Shown: positions 57,928 through 64,000 of the stretch, in pieces
Numbering within the stretch: the first letter of the stretch is position 1
Layout of the letters: every line of letters starts with the position of its first letter
Source of the DNA: Mycolicibacterium sarraceniae
Lineage (GTDB): Bacteria > Actinomycetota > Actinomycetes > Mycobacteriales > Mycobacteriaceae
Direction: 5' to 3'
NCBI RefSeq assembly: GCF_010731875.1
Contig: NZ_AP022595.1
Coordinates: 1,116,001 to 1,180,000 of the forward strand
Length of the DNA stretch: 64,000 nt
The notes under the pieces: generated by a model
Databases searched by the model: none
What the model saw: only the letters and a program-made list of their open reading frames with translations
Told to the model about the DNA's origin: nothing
Position numbers and translations under genes: made by a program

Positions 57928-58128
57928 CTAGCCGGTCGCCGACGTCGTGGTCACGGCGCCCGACACCAGGGCCGGCGACGGTGGGGTGGGCGTGGGGAAT
58001 TTCGATTCCTGCCCGGAATCAGCAGAGGTGCGGTTCAACGTGGAACCGCTGACAGCGGCGGTGACGGCGAATATCGCGAGCAGAACGATGGCCGCCGCCC
58101 CAACGGTCGCGGCAAGTACTTTTTTCAT
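57928..58128 (-). CDS. Small secreted or membrane-anchored protein
   Basis: 66 aa from ATG 58128 (GAAGG about 13 bases upstream). Basic start MKK, hydrophobic stretch VLAATVGAAAIVLLAIFAVTAAV, then a Ser/Thr/Pro-rich tail with PTPTPPSPA. Could be a Sec-exported peptide or anchored by the helix. No family recognised. Confidence 0.5.
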   Translation of the reverse strand: MKKVLAATVGAAAIVLLAIFAVTAAVSGSTLNRTSADSGQESKFPTPTPPSPALVSGAVTTTSATG

Positions 58129-58231
58129 ATCCCAACTGCCTTCTGTCAACAAAATATTGTCAGTGGGCCCAACATCAAGCTACGCCAACATATTTCGATT
58201 TCACATAAACCTCAGGGTGTTGGCCAGACAC

Positions 58232-58790
58232 TTACAGGAGGCTCAAAGGGTCAGCATTGAGCACACTAAGGGTGTTGCGGCGCTTGCTGAGCCATGCCGC
58301 GGTCTCGGCGACCACCGTGATCCCGAGATTGTGATTCAGTTCGATGACCGCGCTGACCACAGCGGCAGCCCGGTCGTCGGCGGCAACCGACGCGATGAAA
58401 TGGCGGTCGAATTTCACGTCGCCGATCGGCAGATCACGCAGCTAACTCAAAGCTGAATAGCCGCTGCCGAAGTCATCGATGGCGATCCGGACGCCGTCGT
58501 CGCGCAGTTGTTGCAGCACCCCGGTTGCCCGGCCCACCTCGTCGAAGACCAGATCCTCGGTGATCTCGATGGTCAGTATCCGGGCCGGGAGATCACGTTC
58601 CCGCAGAACACTACTCACCGCCTCGCGCAGTTGGAGGTCGCGGAGCAGCGGTGCGAACAGATTGACTGCGACAGGGACATCCAGCCCCATCGCCATCCAC
58701 CGGGCTGCATCATCGAGCACCTTCTTGACAACCAGATCGGTCACCGGACGCATCAACCCGTGGCGCAGGATGCGGGGCAAAAAATGCCGC
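58232..58790 (-). pseudogene. EAL-domain (c-di-GMP phosphodiesterase) fragment with nonsense codon
   Basis: Reads PRILRHGLMRPVTDLVVKKV, DVPVAVNLFAPLLRD, ILTIEITEDLVFDEVGRAT and IAIDDFGSGYSALS, then TAG at about 58442-58444, and continues in frame LRDLPIGDVKFDRHFIASV and ITVVAET. The TAG replaces the Tyr of the usual SYLRDLP. The N-terminal EAL signature region and the C-terminal end are absent. Confidence 0.75.
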
Positions 58791-58978
58791 TGGCCGAAGC
58801 ACTTTCAGGCGCGGATGGCTCCGCAACATTTCCCAACGATGTTGTCGCCGCCCCACCGGAAGGTAAATGCCGGAGCAAGAAGATAGCTGAAGACAAGGTC
58901 GGCAAAGTCGATCGCGCCATGACCGTGCGATCCTCCACTGCCATCACCACCCAGGGGGGATGCTAACGAAGTGAACTG

Positions 58979-59968
58979 TCAGAACAGCGCGAACTGTTGA
59001 CCCTGGTCAACCGAAGGCGCGAACTCGTCCATCCCGGTGCCGTTGGCCACTGTCGCGACGGAGGCCATGAACTGCCGGTCGGACACCACCGGCACGCCGA
59101 GCTCTCGCGCCAGGTAGCCCTTGCCCTGCTCGGGTGTCTGCTGGTTGCAGATCACTAGGGAGGTCTGCGGGTCGACGGCGTCGGCGTAGGCGAGCCCGGC
59201 GTGGATGATCCGCTCGACGAGTTCCTCGTGGGTGCGATCCACCTCGGCCGACAGCGCGACGCGCATGCCCTGGACCAGCGGGCCACCCCGGCGGTATGGC
59301 CCGGGGTTCAGGTACGGGCACGGCATCCGGGAGGCCATCATCTTCAGCGGCCGCAGCTCATCGTGCGTCACCCGGCCGTTGGGCCAGCGGCGCCGGGTCG
59401 CGGGCCGCACCGGCAACCACACCTCCCGTTCGCGGGCCCGCTGCAGCGCCGGGGCCAGCACCTGGGACAGCACCAGCGCGTCGTCGAAAGCGTCGTGCGC
59501 GCGGGTCTGTGGCACCCCCCAGTGCCGTGCCAGGGTCTCCAACCGCAAGTTCTCCAAGCCCAGGTCGAGACGGCGGGCGAGCTCGACGGTGCACATGACG
59601 GTGTCGACCGGCAGTGCGGTTTCGGCCAGCTCGGCCTCACTGGACAGGAATGCGTAGTCGAAGGCCACGTTGTGGGCCACCAAGGTGCGACCGTGCAGCA
59701 GTTCGATGACATCGGGGGCGATATCGGCGAAGGTCGGCTGGTCTTCCAGCATCTCGGAAGTGAGGCCGTGGATATGAGTGGGGCCGGGATCGACGCCGGG
59801 GTTGAGCAGGCTGACGACGGAGTGTTCGACGCGGCCCTCGGGGTCCAGCGCCAGGGCAGCCAGGCTGATGATCCGGGCGTGGCCGGGCCGGAAACCCGAG
59901 GTCTCGACGTCGACCACGACCCACCCATCGGCCGGCTCGCGGGCAGGTCGACCCCAGGTGTAGCTCAC
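58979..59968 (-). CDS. dnaQ: DnaQ-like 3'-5' exonuclease with BRCT domain (Rv3711c type)
   Basis: 329 aa from GTG 59968, the same length as Rv3711c. DEDDh exonuclease: VVDVETSGFRPG (Exo I), AHNVAFDYAFLSSE (Exo II) and RAHDAFDDALVLSQ (Exo III). A C-terminal BRCT-like domain (about residues 235-329) contains SLVICNQQTPEQGKGYLA. Annotated as the polymerase III epsilon subunit in M. tuberculosis, though proofreading there is mainly by the DnaE1 PHP domain. Divergent from murT (89 bp). Confidence 0.9.
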   Translation of the reverse strand: MSYTWGRPAREPADGWVVVDVETSGFRPGHARIISLAALALDPEGRVEHSVVSLLNPGVDPGPTHIHGLTSEMLEDQPTFADIAPDVIELLHGRTLVAHNVAFDYAFLSSEAELAETALPVDTVMCTVELARRLDLGLENLRLETLARHWGVPQTRAHDAFDDALVLSQVLAPALQRAREREVWLPVRPATRRRWPNGRVTHDELRPLKMMASRMPCPYLNPGPYRRGGPLVQGMRVALSAEVDRTHEELVERIIHAGLAYADAVDPQTSLVICNQQTPEQGKGYLARELGVPVVSDRQFMASVATVANGTGMDEFAPSVDQGQQFALF

Positions 59969-60043
59969 ACAGTCAGGATGGCACGCAGGTCCGACAGTGC
60001 CCGGGACATCGAATCCGTGTCGGCCGAGCTGCTCATCTTTGAA

Positions 60044-60049
60044 TAAACT
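60044..60049 (+). promoter_or_regulatory. Candidate -10 of murT-gatD
   Basis: TAAACT, eight bases before ATG 60058; no ribosome site precedes the ATG, consistent with a leaderless or near-leaderless message. Confidence 0.4.
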
Positions 60050-60057
60050 CCGTCCCA

Positions 60058-61341
60058 ATGCCCAAGCCAACGATGACACTGCGGGGGCGCGCCGCCTTGG
60101 CCGCCGGTTCCGCCGCGCGCTGGGCTTCCCGGGCCACTGGCCGCGGCGCGGGCGCCATGATCGGCGGCCTTGTCGCGATGACCCTGGATCGCTCGATCCT
60201 GGGTCAGCTCGGCAGCGGGCGTTGCACTGTCGTCGTGACCGGCACAAACGGCAAGTCCACCACCACCCGCATGACGGCCGCGGCCCTCGCCACGCTCGGT
60301 CCGGTCGCCACCAATGCCGAGGGGGCCAATATGGACGCCGGGCTGGTGGCCGCGCTGGCCGGCTCCCGTCAGGCGTCGTTGGCCGCGCTCGAGGTCGACG
60401 AGATGCACGTCCCGCATGTCGCCGACGCGGTGAACCCCGCGGTGATCGTGCTGCTGAATCTGTCACGTGATCAGCTCGACCGGGTGGGTGAGATCAACCA
60501 CATCGAGCGGACCCTGCGCGCCGGGCTCGCCAGGCACCCCGATGCGATCATCGTCGCCAACTGCGACGACGTTCTGATGACGTCGGCGGCCTACGACAGT
60601 CCTCGAGTGGTGTGGGTGGCTGCCGGCGGTGGCTGGGCCAACGACTCGGTCAGCTGCCCGCGCAGCGGCGAGATCATCGTCCGCGACCATTTGCACTGGT
60701 ACTCAACGGGTACGGATTTCAAGCGGCCGAGCCCGCAGTGGTGGTACGACGACACGAACATCTATGGGCCGAACGGCTTGGAGCTGCCGATGCGGCTGTC
60801 ACTGCCGGGAAAGGTCAACCGGGGCAACGCTACTCAGGCAGTGGCCGCCGCGGTGGCCCTGGGGGCGGATGCTGCCGCCGCGGTGGCCGCCGTCTCCGGG
60901 GTCGATGAGGTCGCCGGCCGATACCAGACCGTGCCGGTGGGTGAGCACACCGCCCGCATCCTGCTGGCCAAGAACCCGGCCGGTTGGCAGGAAGCGCTCT
61001 CGATGGTCGACATAACCGCGCAGGGCGTGGTGATATCGGTCAACGGCCAGGTGCCCGACGGCGAAGACCTGTCCTGGCTCTGGGATGTCAACTTCGAGCA
61101 TTTCGACGGTGTCCCTGTTGTCGCTGCCGGCGAGCGGGGAACCGACCTGGCGGTGCGGCTGGGCTACGCAGGTGTGCCGCACACGTTGGTGCACAACACC
61201 ATTGACGCGATTGTGTCCTGCCCGAAGGGACATGTCGAGGTGGTGGCGAACTACACCGCGTTCCTTGCGCTGACGCGGACGCTGGGGCGGATGGGTCCGG
61301 CGGGGTGGAGCGCAGCGACTCGGGGTAATGGCGATGGCTGA
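60058..61341 (+). CDS. murT: Lipid II isoglutaminyl synthase, MurT subunit
   Basis: 427 aa from ATG 60058. Mur ligase central domain with P-loop TGTNGKSTTTRM, NAEGANMDAG, DEMHVPHVADAVNP and LLNLSRDQLDRVGEI; C-terminal DUF1727 domain from about residue 310. With GatD it amidates the D-Glu carboxylate of lipid II stem peptide. Homologue of Rv3712. Overlaps gatD by 8 bp. The four-Cys zinc ribbon of some Gram-positive MurT proteins is not evident. Confidence 0.94.
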   Translation: MPKPTMTLRGRAALAAGSAARWASRATGRGAGAMIGGLVAMTLDRSILGQLGSGRCTVVVTGTNGKSTTTRMTAAALATLGPVATNAEGANMDAGLVAALAGSRQASLAALEVDEMHVPHVADAVNPAVIVLLNLSRDQLDRVGEINHIERTLRAGLARHPDAIIVANCDDVLMTSAAYDSPRVVWVAAGGGWANDSVSCPRSGEIIVRDHLHWYSTGTDFKRPSPQWWYDDTNIYGPNGLELPMRLSLPGKVNRGNATQAVAAAVALGADAAAAVAAVSGVDEVAGRYQTVPVGEHTARILLAKNPAGWQEALSMVDITAQGVVISVNGQVPDGEDLSWLWDVNFEHFDGVPVVAAGERGTDLAVRLGYAGVPHTLVHNTIDAIVSCPKGHVEVVANYTAFLALTRTLGRMGPAGWSAATRGNGDG

Positions 61342-62044
61342 GATTCAGATTGGGCTGGTGCTGCCCGACGTGATGGGGACCTACGGTGACGGCGGCAATG
61401 CCGTCGTGTTGCGGCAGCGCCTGCGGCTGCGCGGGATTGACGCCGATATTGTCGAAATCACGCTATCCGACCCGGTGCCCGACTCGCTGGACCTCTACAC
61501 CCTCGGCGGCGCCGAGGACTACGCGCAGCGGTTGGCCACCAAACACCTTCTGACACATCAGGGCTTACAGCGGGCCGTCGCCCGTGGTGCTCCAGTGCTG
61601 GCGATCTGCGCGGCGATCCAGGTGCTGGGCCACTGGTATGAGACGTCGGCCGGCGAGCGGGTCGAGGGGGTCGGCCTGCTGGATGTGACGACGTCTCCAC
61701 AGGCCAGCCGAACCATCGGCGAAGTGGTGTCCACGCCGTTGTTGGACGGTATGACGTCGCCGCTGACTGGATTCGAAAATCACCGCGGTGGAACGGTTTT
61801 GGGCCCGGACGCCCGGCCGTTGGCGGCGGTGGTCAAGGGCGCGGGTAATCGCGCGGGGGACGGGTACGACGGCGCTGTCCAAGGCAGCGTGGTGGCGACT
61901 TACCTGCACGGCCCGTGCCTGGCACGCAATCCCGAGCTGGCCGACCTGTTGTTAGCGCGTGTGGTCGGGCCGCTGGAGCCGTTGGAGCTGACCGAGGTCG
62001 AACGGCTGCGTCGCGAACGACTCGTCGCGCCCCGGCGCGCGTAA
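61334..62044 (+). CDS. gatD: Lipid II isoglutaminyl synthase, glutaminase subunit GatD
   Basis: 236 aa from ATG 61334 (GGGG at proper distance; ATG 61328 also possible). CobB/CobQ-like class I amidotransferase: LPDVMGTYGDGGN, LGGAEDYAQ, nucleophile Cys92 in LAICAAIQVLG and catalytic His192 in TYLHGP. Supplies ammonia from glutamine to MurT. Homologue of Rv3713. Confidence 0.94.
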   Translation: MAEIQIGLVLPDVMGTYGDGGNAVVLRQRLRLRGIDADIVEITLSDPVPDSLDLYTLGGAEDYAQRLATKHLLTHQGLQRAVARGAPVLAICAAIQVLGHWYETSAGERVEGVGLLDVTTSPQASRTIGEVVSTPLLDGMTSPLTGFENHRGGTVLGPDARPLAAVVKGAGNRAGDGYDGAVQGSVVATYLHGPCLARNPELADLLLARVVGPLEPLELTEVERLRRERLVAPRRA

Positions 62045-62061
62045 TCCTTCATTACGCCGAC

Positions 62062-62116
62062 ATTGAACTCATGCAGTGAAAGTGCGAGTGACCCTCTGCG
62101 TGAGTTCAATCTCGCG
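62062..62116. repeat. 55-bp palindromic repeat, copy 1 (3' side of the AbiEi/DUF559 gene)
   Basis: Ends are a perfect inverted repeat, ATTGAACTCA and TGAGTTCAAT, enclosing GAAAGTGCGAGT and followed by CTCGCG. It is 49/55 identical by eye to copy 2 at 62996-63050, in the same orientation. The last 11 bp lie inside the minus-strand gene and provide its final codons and TGA. Confidence 0.85.
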
Positions 62117-62957
62117 CACGCCATCCACGTGAAGTCAGGGCAGCACGCACTCGGGCGATCACATCCGCCGGGTTGTCTTCCTTGATGACGCTCACCACCT
62201 TCCATCCCATCCCAGCGACCAGGCGCGCCCGCTTTCGATCCCAGGCATAGCGGCCGCGGTCAGTCCGATGCAGATCGCCGTCGTATTCAGCCGCCACCAT
62301 GAACTCCTCCCAGCCCATATCGAGCATCGCGATCAGGCCCCACGTGTTTTGAACCGGTATCTGAGTGGTGGGGACGGGAATGCCCGCGTCGATGAGCAAC
62401 AACCGCAGCCACGTTTCCTTCGGCGATGCCGCGCCGCGGTCAACCAAGGGCAGCGCTTCGCGGAGCCGGCGAAGCCCGCGCGCATTGAGATGCCTTTTGG
62501 CAATGAGCAATACGTCTTCACGCGAAAAGCAGATCGCGCGAGACAGTGCGTCCAGCCGAGGGATCGCCCTATCCCGGGGAAGGTGCCGACCGAGGTCGTA
62601 AGCCGTCCGGGCGACCGTGGTGACGGGAAGGCCCGACACCCGAGTGACCTCGTCATCATCGAGCGCCTCGTTGCGAACGATGAGCCCAGCCGGTGAGCGC
62701 CCGTTGTTCCAAATCAACTCAACCGGTTCGTCACCGTCCACCCATTGTGAACCGTGCAAGGCCGCCGCAGCGGCACCGGCAATGACGGCTCGCCGTCGCG
62801 ACCACAACCAAGCGGCGGCAGTGCGTTCGCGCAACGAGAGAGGCTTTCCGCGAGCACGGTAAACATCGGGCAGAAGCCTGTCGTGGAATCGCGCCAGCTC
62901 GTGTCGGGTCAGGGCACCGCTCGCCAGTGCTTCGCTGCCAATGAAAGCCTCACCCAT
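62106..62957 (-). CDS. AbiEi-like plus DUF559 (Vsr-type nuclease fold) protein (Rv3714c type)
   Basis: 283 aa from ATG 62957. N-terminal winged-helix stretch resembling AbiEi antitoxin/type IV TA regulators (SGALTRHELARFHDRLLPDVY, residues about 13-33), a central domain with IAGAAAAALHGSQW, and a C-terminal DUF559/Vsr-like PD-(D/E)xK-type segment with MVAAEYDGDLHRTDRGRYAW and KRARLVAGMGWKVV. Homologue of Rv3714c. No AbiEii nucleotidyltransferase toxin is adjacent, so a true toxin-antitoxin pair is unlikely. Framed by two copies of a palindromic repeat. Confidence 0.8.
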   Translation of the reverse strand: MGEAFIGSEALASGALTRHELARFHDRLLPDVYRARGKPLSLRERTAAAWLWSRRRAVIAGAAAAALHGSQWVDGDEPVELIWNNGRSPAGLIVRNEALDDDEVTRVSGLPVTTVARTAYDLGRHLPRDRAIPRLDALSRAICFSREDVLLIAKRHLNARGLRRLREALPLVDRGAASPKETWLRLLLIDAGIPVPTTQIPVQNTWGLIAMLDMGWEEFMVAAEYDGDLHRTDRGRYAWDRKRARLVAGMGWKVVSVIKEDNPADVIARVRAALTSRGWRARD

Positions 62958-62995
62958 CGGGTCATCATCGGCGTGGCCACTGACAATTCACCCAG

Positions 62996-63050
62996 ATTGA
63001 ACTGATGCAGAGAAAGTGCGAGTAACCCCTTACGTGAGTTCAATCTCGCG
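62996..63050. repeat. 55-bp palindromic repeat, copy 2 (5' side of the AbiEi/DUF559 gene)
   Basis: Starts ATTGAACTGA and ends TGAGTTCAAT then CTCGCG, with GAAAGTGCGAGT inside; one mismatch in the inverted arms. Begins 38 bp upstream of the gene's start codon. Same orientation as copy 1, 934 bp apart. Confidence 0.85.
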
Positions 63051-63055
63051 AGTGT

Positions 63056-63302
63056 ACGTGCATGGTCGCCCTGGAAAAGGTGGACGTTGATCTCGTTGAA
63101 CTCGAAACTATGCGGTCGATCGGAAACCCGTACGCCTGCGTCGCTTCCACCTCGGACCAGCGCTTCGTGTGCGTGAATCTCCTTGGCACCAGTATCGAAG
63201 ATCGGCTGGAAGGCCATGGAGAGCTCGAGGCCCGAACCGGCGCCGTCGAGACAGGCCCCACAGTTCAGCCGAACATAATCGCTTGGAGCGGTCGCAGTGG
63301 GC
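63056..63302 (-). pseudogene. N-terminal fragment of an EAL-domain gene
   Basis: In frame directly after the recR stop: LNCGACLDGAGSGLELSMAF, QPIFDTGAKEIHAHEALVRG, then unrelated codons. This is the first 35-40 residues of an EAL domain of the type preceded by a CxxC segment. No start codon precedes the Cys segment and the domain breaks off after EALVRG, so it is a fragment. The rest of the 62958-63304 interval holds the repeat copy. Confidence 0.6.
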
Positions 63303-63304
63303 CG

Positions 63305-63916
63305 CTAGACCATCTGACGGCGGCCGGTGAGGGCACGGCCCAGCGTCAGCTCGTCGGCGAACTCAAGGTCACCGCCCATCGGCAAGCCCGACGCGATCCG
63401 CGACACCGTGAGCCCGGGGATATCGCGCAGGATCCGCACCAGATAGGTGGCCGTGGCCTCCCCCTCGGTGTTCGGATCGGTCGCGATGATCACCTCGGTG
63501 ATATCCACACCGTCGACGCGCTCACCAATTCTGTTGAGCAGCTGACGAATTCGCAGCTGATCCGGCCCAATGCCAGACAGCGGATCCAGCGCGCCGCCCA
63601 GCACGTGATAGCGCCCACGGAACTCCCGGGTGCGTTCGACAGCCTGTACGTCCTTGGGTTCCTCGACCACACATACCTGCGTCCCGTCGCGGCGGGCGTC
63701 ACCGCAGATTCGGCAACGCTCGCCGTCGGACACATTGCCGCACACTTCGCAGAACTGCACACCGTCGCGAACCCTGCCCAGCGCCGCGGTCAGCCGATCG
63801 ATATCCGGCGGCTCCACCGACAGCAGGTGGAAAGCGATCCGCTGTGCGCTCTTGGGACCGACGCCCGGCAGCTTGCCGAGCTCATCGATCAAATCCTGGA
63901 CGGGGCCTTCAAACAA
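63305..63916 (-). CDS. recR: Recombination mediator RecR
   Basis: 203 aa from ATG 63916, the usual length. Hh[25 protein letters not shown] start, zinc finger CxxC...CxxC (FCEVCGN and RCRICGD), Toprim domain with [13 protein letters not shown], and Walker-like C-terminal [17 protein letters not shown]. Works with RecO/RecF in gap repair. Homologue of Rv3715c; 5 bp downstream of ybaB. Confidence 0.96.
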
Positions 63917-63921
63917 AGAAG

Positions 63922-64000
63922 TCAGGCCCCCGGCAGACCCGGCGCACCCGCGCCACCGGCCAGCGGACCGAGATGGGTCTGCGCGAGGATGGCGAACTGA
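63922..64000 (-). CDS. YbaB/EbfC nucleoid-associated protein, C-terminal part (runs off window)
   Basis: Only the last 25 codons are visible, reading [20 protein letters not shown] and LPGA then TGA at 63922. This matches the C-terminus of mycobacterial YbaB (Rv3716c), which precedes recR in most bacteria. DNA-binding protein with a role at the nucleoid. Confidence 0.8.

Follow-up and report, generated by a model that had tools for sequence, protein, structure and literature searches.

A mycobacterial AbiEi/DUF559-type nuclease gene lies between two 57-nt palindromes, and most related genes examined carry palindromes of their own type

In Mycolicibacterium sarraceniae, a gene for a predicted nuclease has a palindrome on either side, which raises the question of whether the gene and its palindromes form one unit of a repeat-enzyme system. 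The window that we analysed is a stretch of 64,000 nt (contig NZ_AP022595.1, 1,116,001 to 1,180,000), and positions at this locus count from its first letter. The gene (62106..62957, minus strand) is an open reading frame of 283 codons that starts with ATG and has its stop codon within the downstream palindrome. The two palindromes, both read on the minus strand, occupy 62992..63048 upstream and 62058..62114 downstream of the gene, and each consists of 57 nt, namely 19-bp arms around a 19-nt asymmetric core (63011..63029 with TTACTCGCACTTT in the upstream copy, 62077..62095 in the downstream copy, minus strand). The upstream palindrome is degenerate (14 of 19 arm pairs), while 17 of 19 arm pairs are formed in the downstream one. 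A preliminary description of this DNA had reported two same-orientation palindromes of 55 bp. Both are indeed present and direct (49 of 57 positions are equal in direct and 34 in inverted comparison), but their natural length is 57 nt. As that description also stated, the distal copy provides the last codons and the stop of the gene, CGA GAT TGA. The upstream palindrome ends 34 bp before the ATG; this spacer (62958..62991, minus strand; TGTCAGTGGC...ATGATGACCCG, read by eye) has a putative promoter role, and TGTCGGTGGC is common to the spacers of related genes, again by eye.

Both window palindromes exceeded chance in folding and shuffle controls, the upstream copy less clearly: the hairpin z-scores on the two strands were -4.5 and -3.9 for the copy at 62058 and only -2.2 and -2.7 for the weaker copy at 62992. 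The palindrome pair was also the longest direct-repeat family between 60000 and 64000 (67 nt, 84% identical, 934 bp apart), and the arm motif ATTGAACTCA had three exact matches in the 64 kb versus 0.02 expected. The neighbours are a GATase_3 gene (Pfam; 61328-62044, plus strand), which we take to be GatD, and, from 63305 on the minus strand, a gene matching the RecR family. Between recR and the upstream palindrome there is a remnant of an EAL-domain gene (63044-63217, minus strand). Its start corresponds to positions 15-42 of the EAL profile with an E-value of 0.011, below the cut-off, and a later piece of 11 residues, FNEINVHLFQG, resembles the C-terminal end of a longer EAL stretch near a family gene in genome G004 (locus L404); judged from these two pieces, the remnant looks as if its middle had been deleted. 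A second EAL-domain stretch at 58442-58780 (minus strand; profile positions 54-162, E 8e-18) lies in an open reading frame of only 112 codons and is therefore apparently not a full-length EAL gene.

The label AbiEi/DUF559-type given to the gene in the preliminary description turned out to be right, but the likeness is faint by sequence: in Pfam the window protein matched only MTES_1575, with an E-value of 0.0013 that is below the cut-off of this family, and PADLOC assigned it to AbiEi with 2.8e-12. NCBIfam gave zero matches and a sequence search of the PDB nothing useful. Among 48 family members at E<=1, Pfam found MTES_1575 in 45 and DUF559 in 41, with AbiEi_1 also among the matches. The structural model of the window protein had a mean pLDDT of 92, and VIA-align aligned its two parts to the AbiEi fold and to the fold of I-Bth0305I, a homing endonuclease of the EDxHD/Vsr type; since Foldseek alone found no match in the PDB at E<=0.001, the fold assignments are those of VIA-align. 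The predicted architecture thus joins an N-terminal part with the AbiEi antitoxin fold, putatively DNA-binding (residues 1-173; 62439..62957, minus strand), to a C-terminal EDxHD/Vsr-type (homing-endonuclease) nuclease part (residues 178-279; 62121..62426, minus strand). The window protein combines the N-terminal fold typical of AbiEi with the catalytic-domain fold and the conserved residues of EDxHD enzymes: of the 48 members, E181 is conserved in 48, D213 in 47, E224 in 47, D226 in 47, H230 in 48 and D240 in 46. No Y1 (HUH) tyrosine transposase family occurred in the Pfam matches of the 48 members and both model parts align to other folds, in agreement with the statement of the preliminary description that the protein is not a Y1 transposase. 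The unit consists of a single gene, and no transposase family was found for it in Pfam or NCBIfam.

A protein with the same kind of architecture, MtbAg1073 of M. tuberculosis (283 aa; COG5340, AbiEi, plus COG2852, YcjD/Vsr-like), has been studied as an antigen, and the word stem "palindrom" does not occur in the available text of that paper (PMC13366182). The window protein differs from the antitoxin AbiEi and from Rv2827c in being joined to a nuclease; no gene for an AbiEii nucleotidyltransferase, the toxin, adjoins it, its neighbours being GatD and recR, and matching sites are found also downstream and scattered. It differs from I-Bth0305I in its AbiEi-like N-terminal part and in that two full palindromes, its presumed target, lie one on each side of the gene.

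The genome of M. sarraceniae contains seven family matches including the window gene, six of them of nearly full length. Of 198 genomes searched within the genus, 196 contain a family match at E<=1e-40, with up to at least 12 matches per genome, and at the order level 78 of 121 genomes match the family alignment at E<=1e-20, ten of these 78 belonging to the same genus. Protein searches of a plasmid collection gave seven matching records, none of them mycobacterial, and of a phage collection one weak match, which is not a mycobacteriophage. A phage origin of the repeat was also considered and dismissed, as the palindrome had no blastn match in the phage collection. In genome G004, the family gene at L404 (G004:C1:5570900-5575400) is broken by an element resembling the IS21 type, with two open reading frames that look IstA/IstB-like by eye.

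To determine how regularly palindromes accompany this family, we scored a gene as bracketed when its upstream and downstream flanks shared a repeat with a score above the maximum of one shuffle per gene. This was done for the best 80 of 115 confirmed loci (79 of them testable), for 40 further genes picked from the matches listed in order of E-value (four of which repeat genes of the first set), and for the seven matches of the window's own genome. A shared repeat was found in 64 of the 79 loci, 32 of the 40 further genes and five of the seven own matches, in a sample in which, owing to the way the first two sets were chosen, distant paralogues are under-represented. In the two own-genome misses (L053 and L055) palindromes are visible only by eye, and a first-pass search for exact arms had found matches adjoining the gene in only five of 80 loci. 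The better match of the two flanks was direct in 69 cases and inverted in 32, and in several loci the stop codon is overlapped or directly adjoined by the downstream copy. Of 20 loci outside the genus, 10 had a repeat common to the upstream and downstream flanks that scored higher than the best of 20 shuffles; some of these repeats, e.g. that of L304, may be other duplications. The extra-genus family genes L299, L300, L301 and L307 are likewise bracketed by palindromes, whose sequence is a different one (L300, for instance, has CGAGTGTCGGCCCAGCGGGG...). Palindromes thus do accompany the paralogues, as the preliminary description had supposed, and a repeat-nuclease association exists; the supposed identity of the palindrome, however, did not hold. 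One palindrome common to all paralogues can be ruled out, because the arms differ and, in distant paralogues, the cores as well, and the window's own palindrome type was found by blastn in 35 of 198 genomes of the genus (best candidates). Each subfamily has its own arms (e.g. GAGATTGAACTCACGCAG, GAGCCTGTAATTTTGCAG, GAGATCGACGTCAGCGTG and GAAACGTACGTTTTGCAG, and GACACTTAAACCACGCAC with another core), and what the subfamilies have in common is the architecture and, within large groups, the core.

The similarity of the proteins predicts that of the upstream palindromes. For 121 units (6862 non-syntenic pairs) the correlation was 0.52, compared with 0.09 in the best of 1000 permutations, and the rank correlation was 0.41, compared with 0.05 when the next flank outward was used instead. 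Among the 368 pairs whose proteins are most alike, 86% shared the palindrome and 0.8% the next flank outward.

Of the 121 genes, 87 have an upstream 57-mer in which 14 or more of 20 pairs are symmetric, while 121 shuffles peaked at 13; controls on single regions reach 13 in places, so that lone weak palindromes are not to be trusted. The 29 class-1 upstream 57-mers among these 87 align without gaps and have the ends CGA...TCG or nearly so. Their arm cells are paired in 88.4%, versus 65.3% after shuffling, a value that is partly built in, since the 57-mers had been chosen for symmetric pairs. The arm cells changed on both sides numbered 123 (44.9 when shuffled), and arm covariation was 0.572, compared with 0.182 for shuffled copies and 0.219 for the best slide; the number of arm pairs with any two-sided change (15) was not above shuffles, 88 of 500 of which reach 15. 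The core (..TACTCGCACTTT..) is asymmetric and more conserved than the arms: in bits per column, class 1 (34 non-redundant copies) has 1.17 for the core and 0.72 for the arms, and class 2 (15 copies) has 1.22 and 1.07. A search of 818 kb of fetched DNA gave 119 palindromes with ends of the CGA..TCG type, versus 18 in the reversed sequence, and 55 of them are exactly 57 nt long; of 65 palindromes of 53-60 nt, 54 fall in gene flanks, which make up 5.8% of this DNA. The 12-nt core motif by itself is not enriched in the genome of M. sarraceniae (13 matches with at most one mismatch versus 19 for the reversed pattern).

Such palindromes can fold, and with a downstream copy that overlaps or abuts the stop codon in several loci they might be bidirectional terminators or hairpin RNAs whose pairing with the gene is incidental. 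This role at the RNA level is very improbable in our view: the upstream copy precedes the start of the gene, only 23 of 551 arm cells are G-U compared with the 123 changed on both sides, and terminators would not track the protein. Known RNA families were sought and rejected, with no Rfam match at E<=1 in 58000-64000 and none at the gathering score in the stretches of L054, L300 and L117; nor did ARAGORN find the end of a tRNA or tmRNA beside the paralogue L054.

The upstream palindrome has a favoured position. Of the 87 clear 57-mers, 52 end 33-36 bp before the start of the gene match (these starts are those of the alignment match, not proven start codons), where the promoter inverted repeats of an AbiE-type system would fit. 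The length is in a similar range, too: adding up the values in the available text of PMC7319586 gives repeat-pair spans of 49 bp for AbiEi and 59 bp for Rv2827c, and dimeric I-Bth0305I is described in part of a review as spanning nearly 60 bp (PMC3943268). Moreover, the upstream copy persists where the downstream one has gone. A shared downstream repeat was missing in 15 of the 79 loci, and 13 of these 15 are at the GatD-recR site, so that the downstream copy is missing in 13 of 18 GatD-recR genes versus 2 of 61 genes elsewhere. All 13 keep the upstream palindrome; in 12 of them its score reaches or exceeds the shuffle maximum of 10.5, and in L067 it is 8.5.

This distance and this persistence would suit a purely regulatory system, in which an AbiEi-type autorepressor has the palindromes as its operators, the scattered copies described below are regulon or chromosome-organising sites kept by the host, and the nuclease acts elsewhere, e.g. 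in DNA repair or defence. AbiEi and Rv2827c do repress themselves through pairs of 23-bp inverted repeats, according to the available text of PMC7319586, and at two sites solitary palindromes have been kept between species. Regulation by itself leaves unexplained the matched second copy at the 3' end, the sites that lack the gene and either palindrome, the class-1 asymmetric core that is more conserved than the arms, and an apparent chimeric scar (see below), and we consider it unlikely.

Palindromes of this kind also occur away from the genes. A covariance model of 57 positions, R1, built from 29 gene-flanking copies, matched 13, 48, 53, 69, 20 and 32 times in six genomes at E<=0.05, some places being counted on both strands, and 43 fetched copies were read. 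Nearly all matches listed span 57 nt, a length towards which they lean because it is that of the model itself. Among the places listed, six of eight in the genome of M. sarraceniae and 21 of 28 in M. rhodesiae DSM 44223 (G053) are not beside a listed family gene. In M. sarraceniae, three such solitary palindromes (at 2337902, 1075782 and 2280786) are of the type of the window gene and three are of other class-1 types. In M. rhodesiae, the arms at the two ends of each of four resident genes are 0.84-0.95 identical, compared with a mean of 0.49 and a maximum of 0.63 between genes. All 20 solitary copies examined there (of 21) match one of these four genes above the 99% level of random palindromes, and 18 of the 20 exceed the maximum of 2000 random palindromes; they are divided between the genes as 8, 6, 5 and 1, and one of the four arm types (GTTTCAC) is absent from the 29 sequences of R1. 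The match of the solitary copies to resident nuclease genes, together with arms that track the nuclease protein across 121 units, speaks against spread in trans, in which another enzyme (an IS200/IS605-type or other transposase) moves the palindromes and the nuclease gene is a passenger caught between two of them. Repeats with no resident enzyme do exist, in that CGTC-type REPs have no known dedicated transposase, as stated in the available text of PMC3733652; for the mycobacterial palindromes we regard spread in trans as very unlikely.

Comparison of related species showed that whole units and single palindromes may be present in one genome and absent from another. G018 lacks the L060 unit and its two palindromes; among the 12 relatives compared, it alone had both flanks aligned (flank identity 86%). 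At the L103 site, 12 of 13 relatives compared have the two flanks but not the unit. At the L117 site of M. arosiense, for which 30 genomes were searched, the unit was found in five genomes besides L117 itself, both flanks occurred without it in 20, and four were undecided. These empty sites mostly contain no cognate palindrome: by eye, none was seen at the gene-less L060/L183 site or in 19 of the 20 gene-less relatives at the L117 site (the 1-kb gap of L338 was displayed partly), and none was present in the 11 junctions displayed for L103, although two of these loci carry a similar one elsewhere. Many of the gene-less relatives at the L117 site (junctions L314-L339) have one or two copies of another, shorter palindrome of the GAGTGTGAAGCTAGCCGCACACTCGG type, which may be the short repeat of another subfamily, because its ends resemble the arms of L055 and L056 (CGAGCGTGCGG).

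The exception is L329, which lacks the gene at the L117 site and has a 66-nt palindrome instead. This palindrome fits a chimera of the left part of the upstream and the right part of the downstream copy as found in L321, joined in the cores at a shared CGA, at 62 of 66 positions (60 with L323), while reading it as either single palindrome requires an extra 9 nt. From its sequence, L329 is apparently a scar of both palindromes, joined core to core; another reading is a single palindrome into which 9 nt have been inserted.

Solitary palindromes differ between species as well. One in G175 is missing in G053 (flank identity about 90%); at a second site, G053 and G004 retain only the outer ends of the palindrome by eye. 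At two further sites, solitary copies occur in four of eight and five of eight genomes compared, with similar cores and changed arms, again by eye. At the L402 and L403 sites, the solitary copies of related species keep a similar core and length, while by eye their arms differ more than the flanks do, as if the arms had been rewritten. Retention of solitary copies with a similar core across several species at two sites is not required of a purely parasitic repeat.

With a homing-endonuclease fold predicted for its C-terminal part, the protein might be expected to home in the proper sense, i.e. to cut solitary palindromes, whose repair from a unit would copy the gene in between, so that every unit replaces a former solitary copy. 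Homing would account for the two full palindromes around the gene and their homogenisation, for their mixed orientation (69 direct, 32 inverted) and for a core-to-core scar. However, sites with neither gene nor palindrome disfavour strict homing into solitary copies, as gene-less sites are mostly without a cognate palindrome by eye (0 of 11 at L103, 19 of 20 without one at L117, none at L060/L183), and half-palindromes of about 28 nt are short for recombination. We consider homing proper quite improbable.

Units have moved to other places, though seldom. The genes at the GatD-recR site do not form one clade in the protein tree (six changes, at least four of them forced by well-supported branches), whereas each of the 12 other site groups is a single clade, which indicates that moves are rare and old. 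One intergenic site is occupied, with opposite gene orientation, by two groups, S1 (10 loci, among them L088) and S2inv (nine loci, among them L082), and the flanks of L082 and L087 were found to match those of the ten S1 loci; S1 and S2inv are close in the tree, and the sister of S1 is S7. The GatD-recR site is occupied in 18 of 79 testable related loci, 13 of them without the downstream palindrome, and therefore the window copy is not a fresh insertion. Target-site duplications were sought at L060, L103, L117 and L402a and none was established: there are hints by eye of 9-11 bp at L402a and of about 17-19 bp at L117, and the four other occupied relatives at the L117 site with both junctions read lack the latter. 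The preliminary proposal of a mobile unit is supported in that units and single palindromes are present in some relatives and absent from others. We infer movement of the unit from synteny, the protein tree and gene-less sites; no transposition signature was established.

Bracketing, matched gene ends, arms that track the protein, the 57-nt architecture, solitary copies that match resident genes, and presence or absence between relatives are what our computations demonstrate. To explain them, we propose, with about even confidence for and against, that the gene and its two palindromes are a unit of a REP/RAYT-like repeat-enzyme system with an unrelated nuclease. In a 57-bp palindrome, each arm would be bound by the AbiEi-like N-terminal part of one of two protein molecules, after which the C-terminal nuclease of the EDxHD/Vsr type would act on the conserved asymmetric core in the middle. 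At its preferred distance from the start codon, the upstream copy would double as an operator through which the protein limits its own synthesis. Through the repair of breaks or nicks in cores, palindromes would be copied, homogenised and deleted and, on rare occasions, a whole palindrome-gene-palindrome unit would be gained or lost; the scattered single 57-mers would be non-autonomous members. Two DNA-binding heads fit the symmetric pair of subfamily-specific arms, a nuclease site fits the conserved asymmetric core, and autoregulation fits the preferred upstream position, which is retained even by genes without a downstream copy. The second matched copy, the scattered cognate copies, the gene-less sites and the core-to-core scar fit a REP/RAYT-type system of repeat and enzyme. 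Against this reading, gene conversion by itself could produce the match between a gene's two ends.

The likeness to REP/REPIN elements and their RAYTs, as far as these are described in the available text of PMC3116915 and PMC3733652, lies in short palindromes in many dispersed copies, in an enzyme gene flanked by its own, cognate repeat type, in several types per genome with distinct enzymes, and in an enzyme that rarely moves by itself. In these papers, the enzymes tied to REP palindromes are Y1 transposases (RAYTs), and one class is said to be without a dedicated enzyme (PMC3733652). The mycobacterial enzyme, in contrast, has no Y1 family match, and its repeat is a 57-nt unit with a 19-nt core and CGA...TCG ends, with no GTAG/CGTC tetranucleotide at the ends of the 29 aligned copies. 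Since the Y1 enzyme and these ends are absent in what was tested, we conclude that the system is not a member of the REP/RAYT family. Among open-licence papers in PMC, we recognised none that links DUF559/AbiEi-type genes to palindromes. A stem-loop family of M. tuberculosis catalogued in 2008, Myt-1 (a 72-nt repeat in 75(70) copies with a predicted structure; PMC2267715), might, compared by description only, be a member of the mycobacterial palindrome family; the available text gives no partner gene for it, and the main text contains neither "nuclease" nor "transposase" (PMC2267715).

Going further, we tentatively entertain the possibility, to which we give well below even chances, of a self-spreading repeat-nuclease system, in which the 57-bp palindrome would be operator, target and homology at the same time: the AbiEi-EDxHD enzyme would cut the cores, repair between palindromes would carry copies of single palindromes and of whole units to new places, and units would be deleted core to core. 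If this were true, evolution would have solved the REP/RAYT problem a second time, independently, with an enzyme family that occurs in 196 of the 198 Mycobacterium genomes examined for it and extends, accompanied by other palindromes, to further Mycobacteriales. Palindromes of the REP kind occur widely among bacteria, and here an unrelated nuclease family is tied to palindromes of its own through matching arms. This provides a testable handle on a large "AbiEi/DUF559" protein family whose annotation is by likeness only, on the repeats of mycobacterial DNA, and on the way in which a homing-type nuclease coexists with many copies of its presumed target; for experiments on specificity, the matched pairs of enzyme and palindrome offer a panel that is already at hand.
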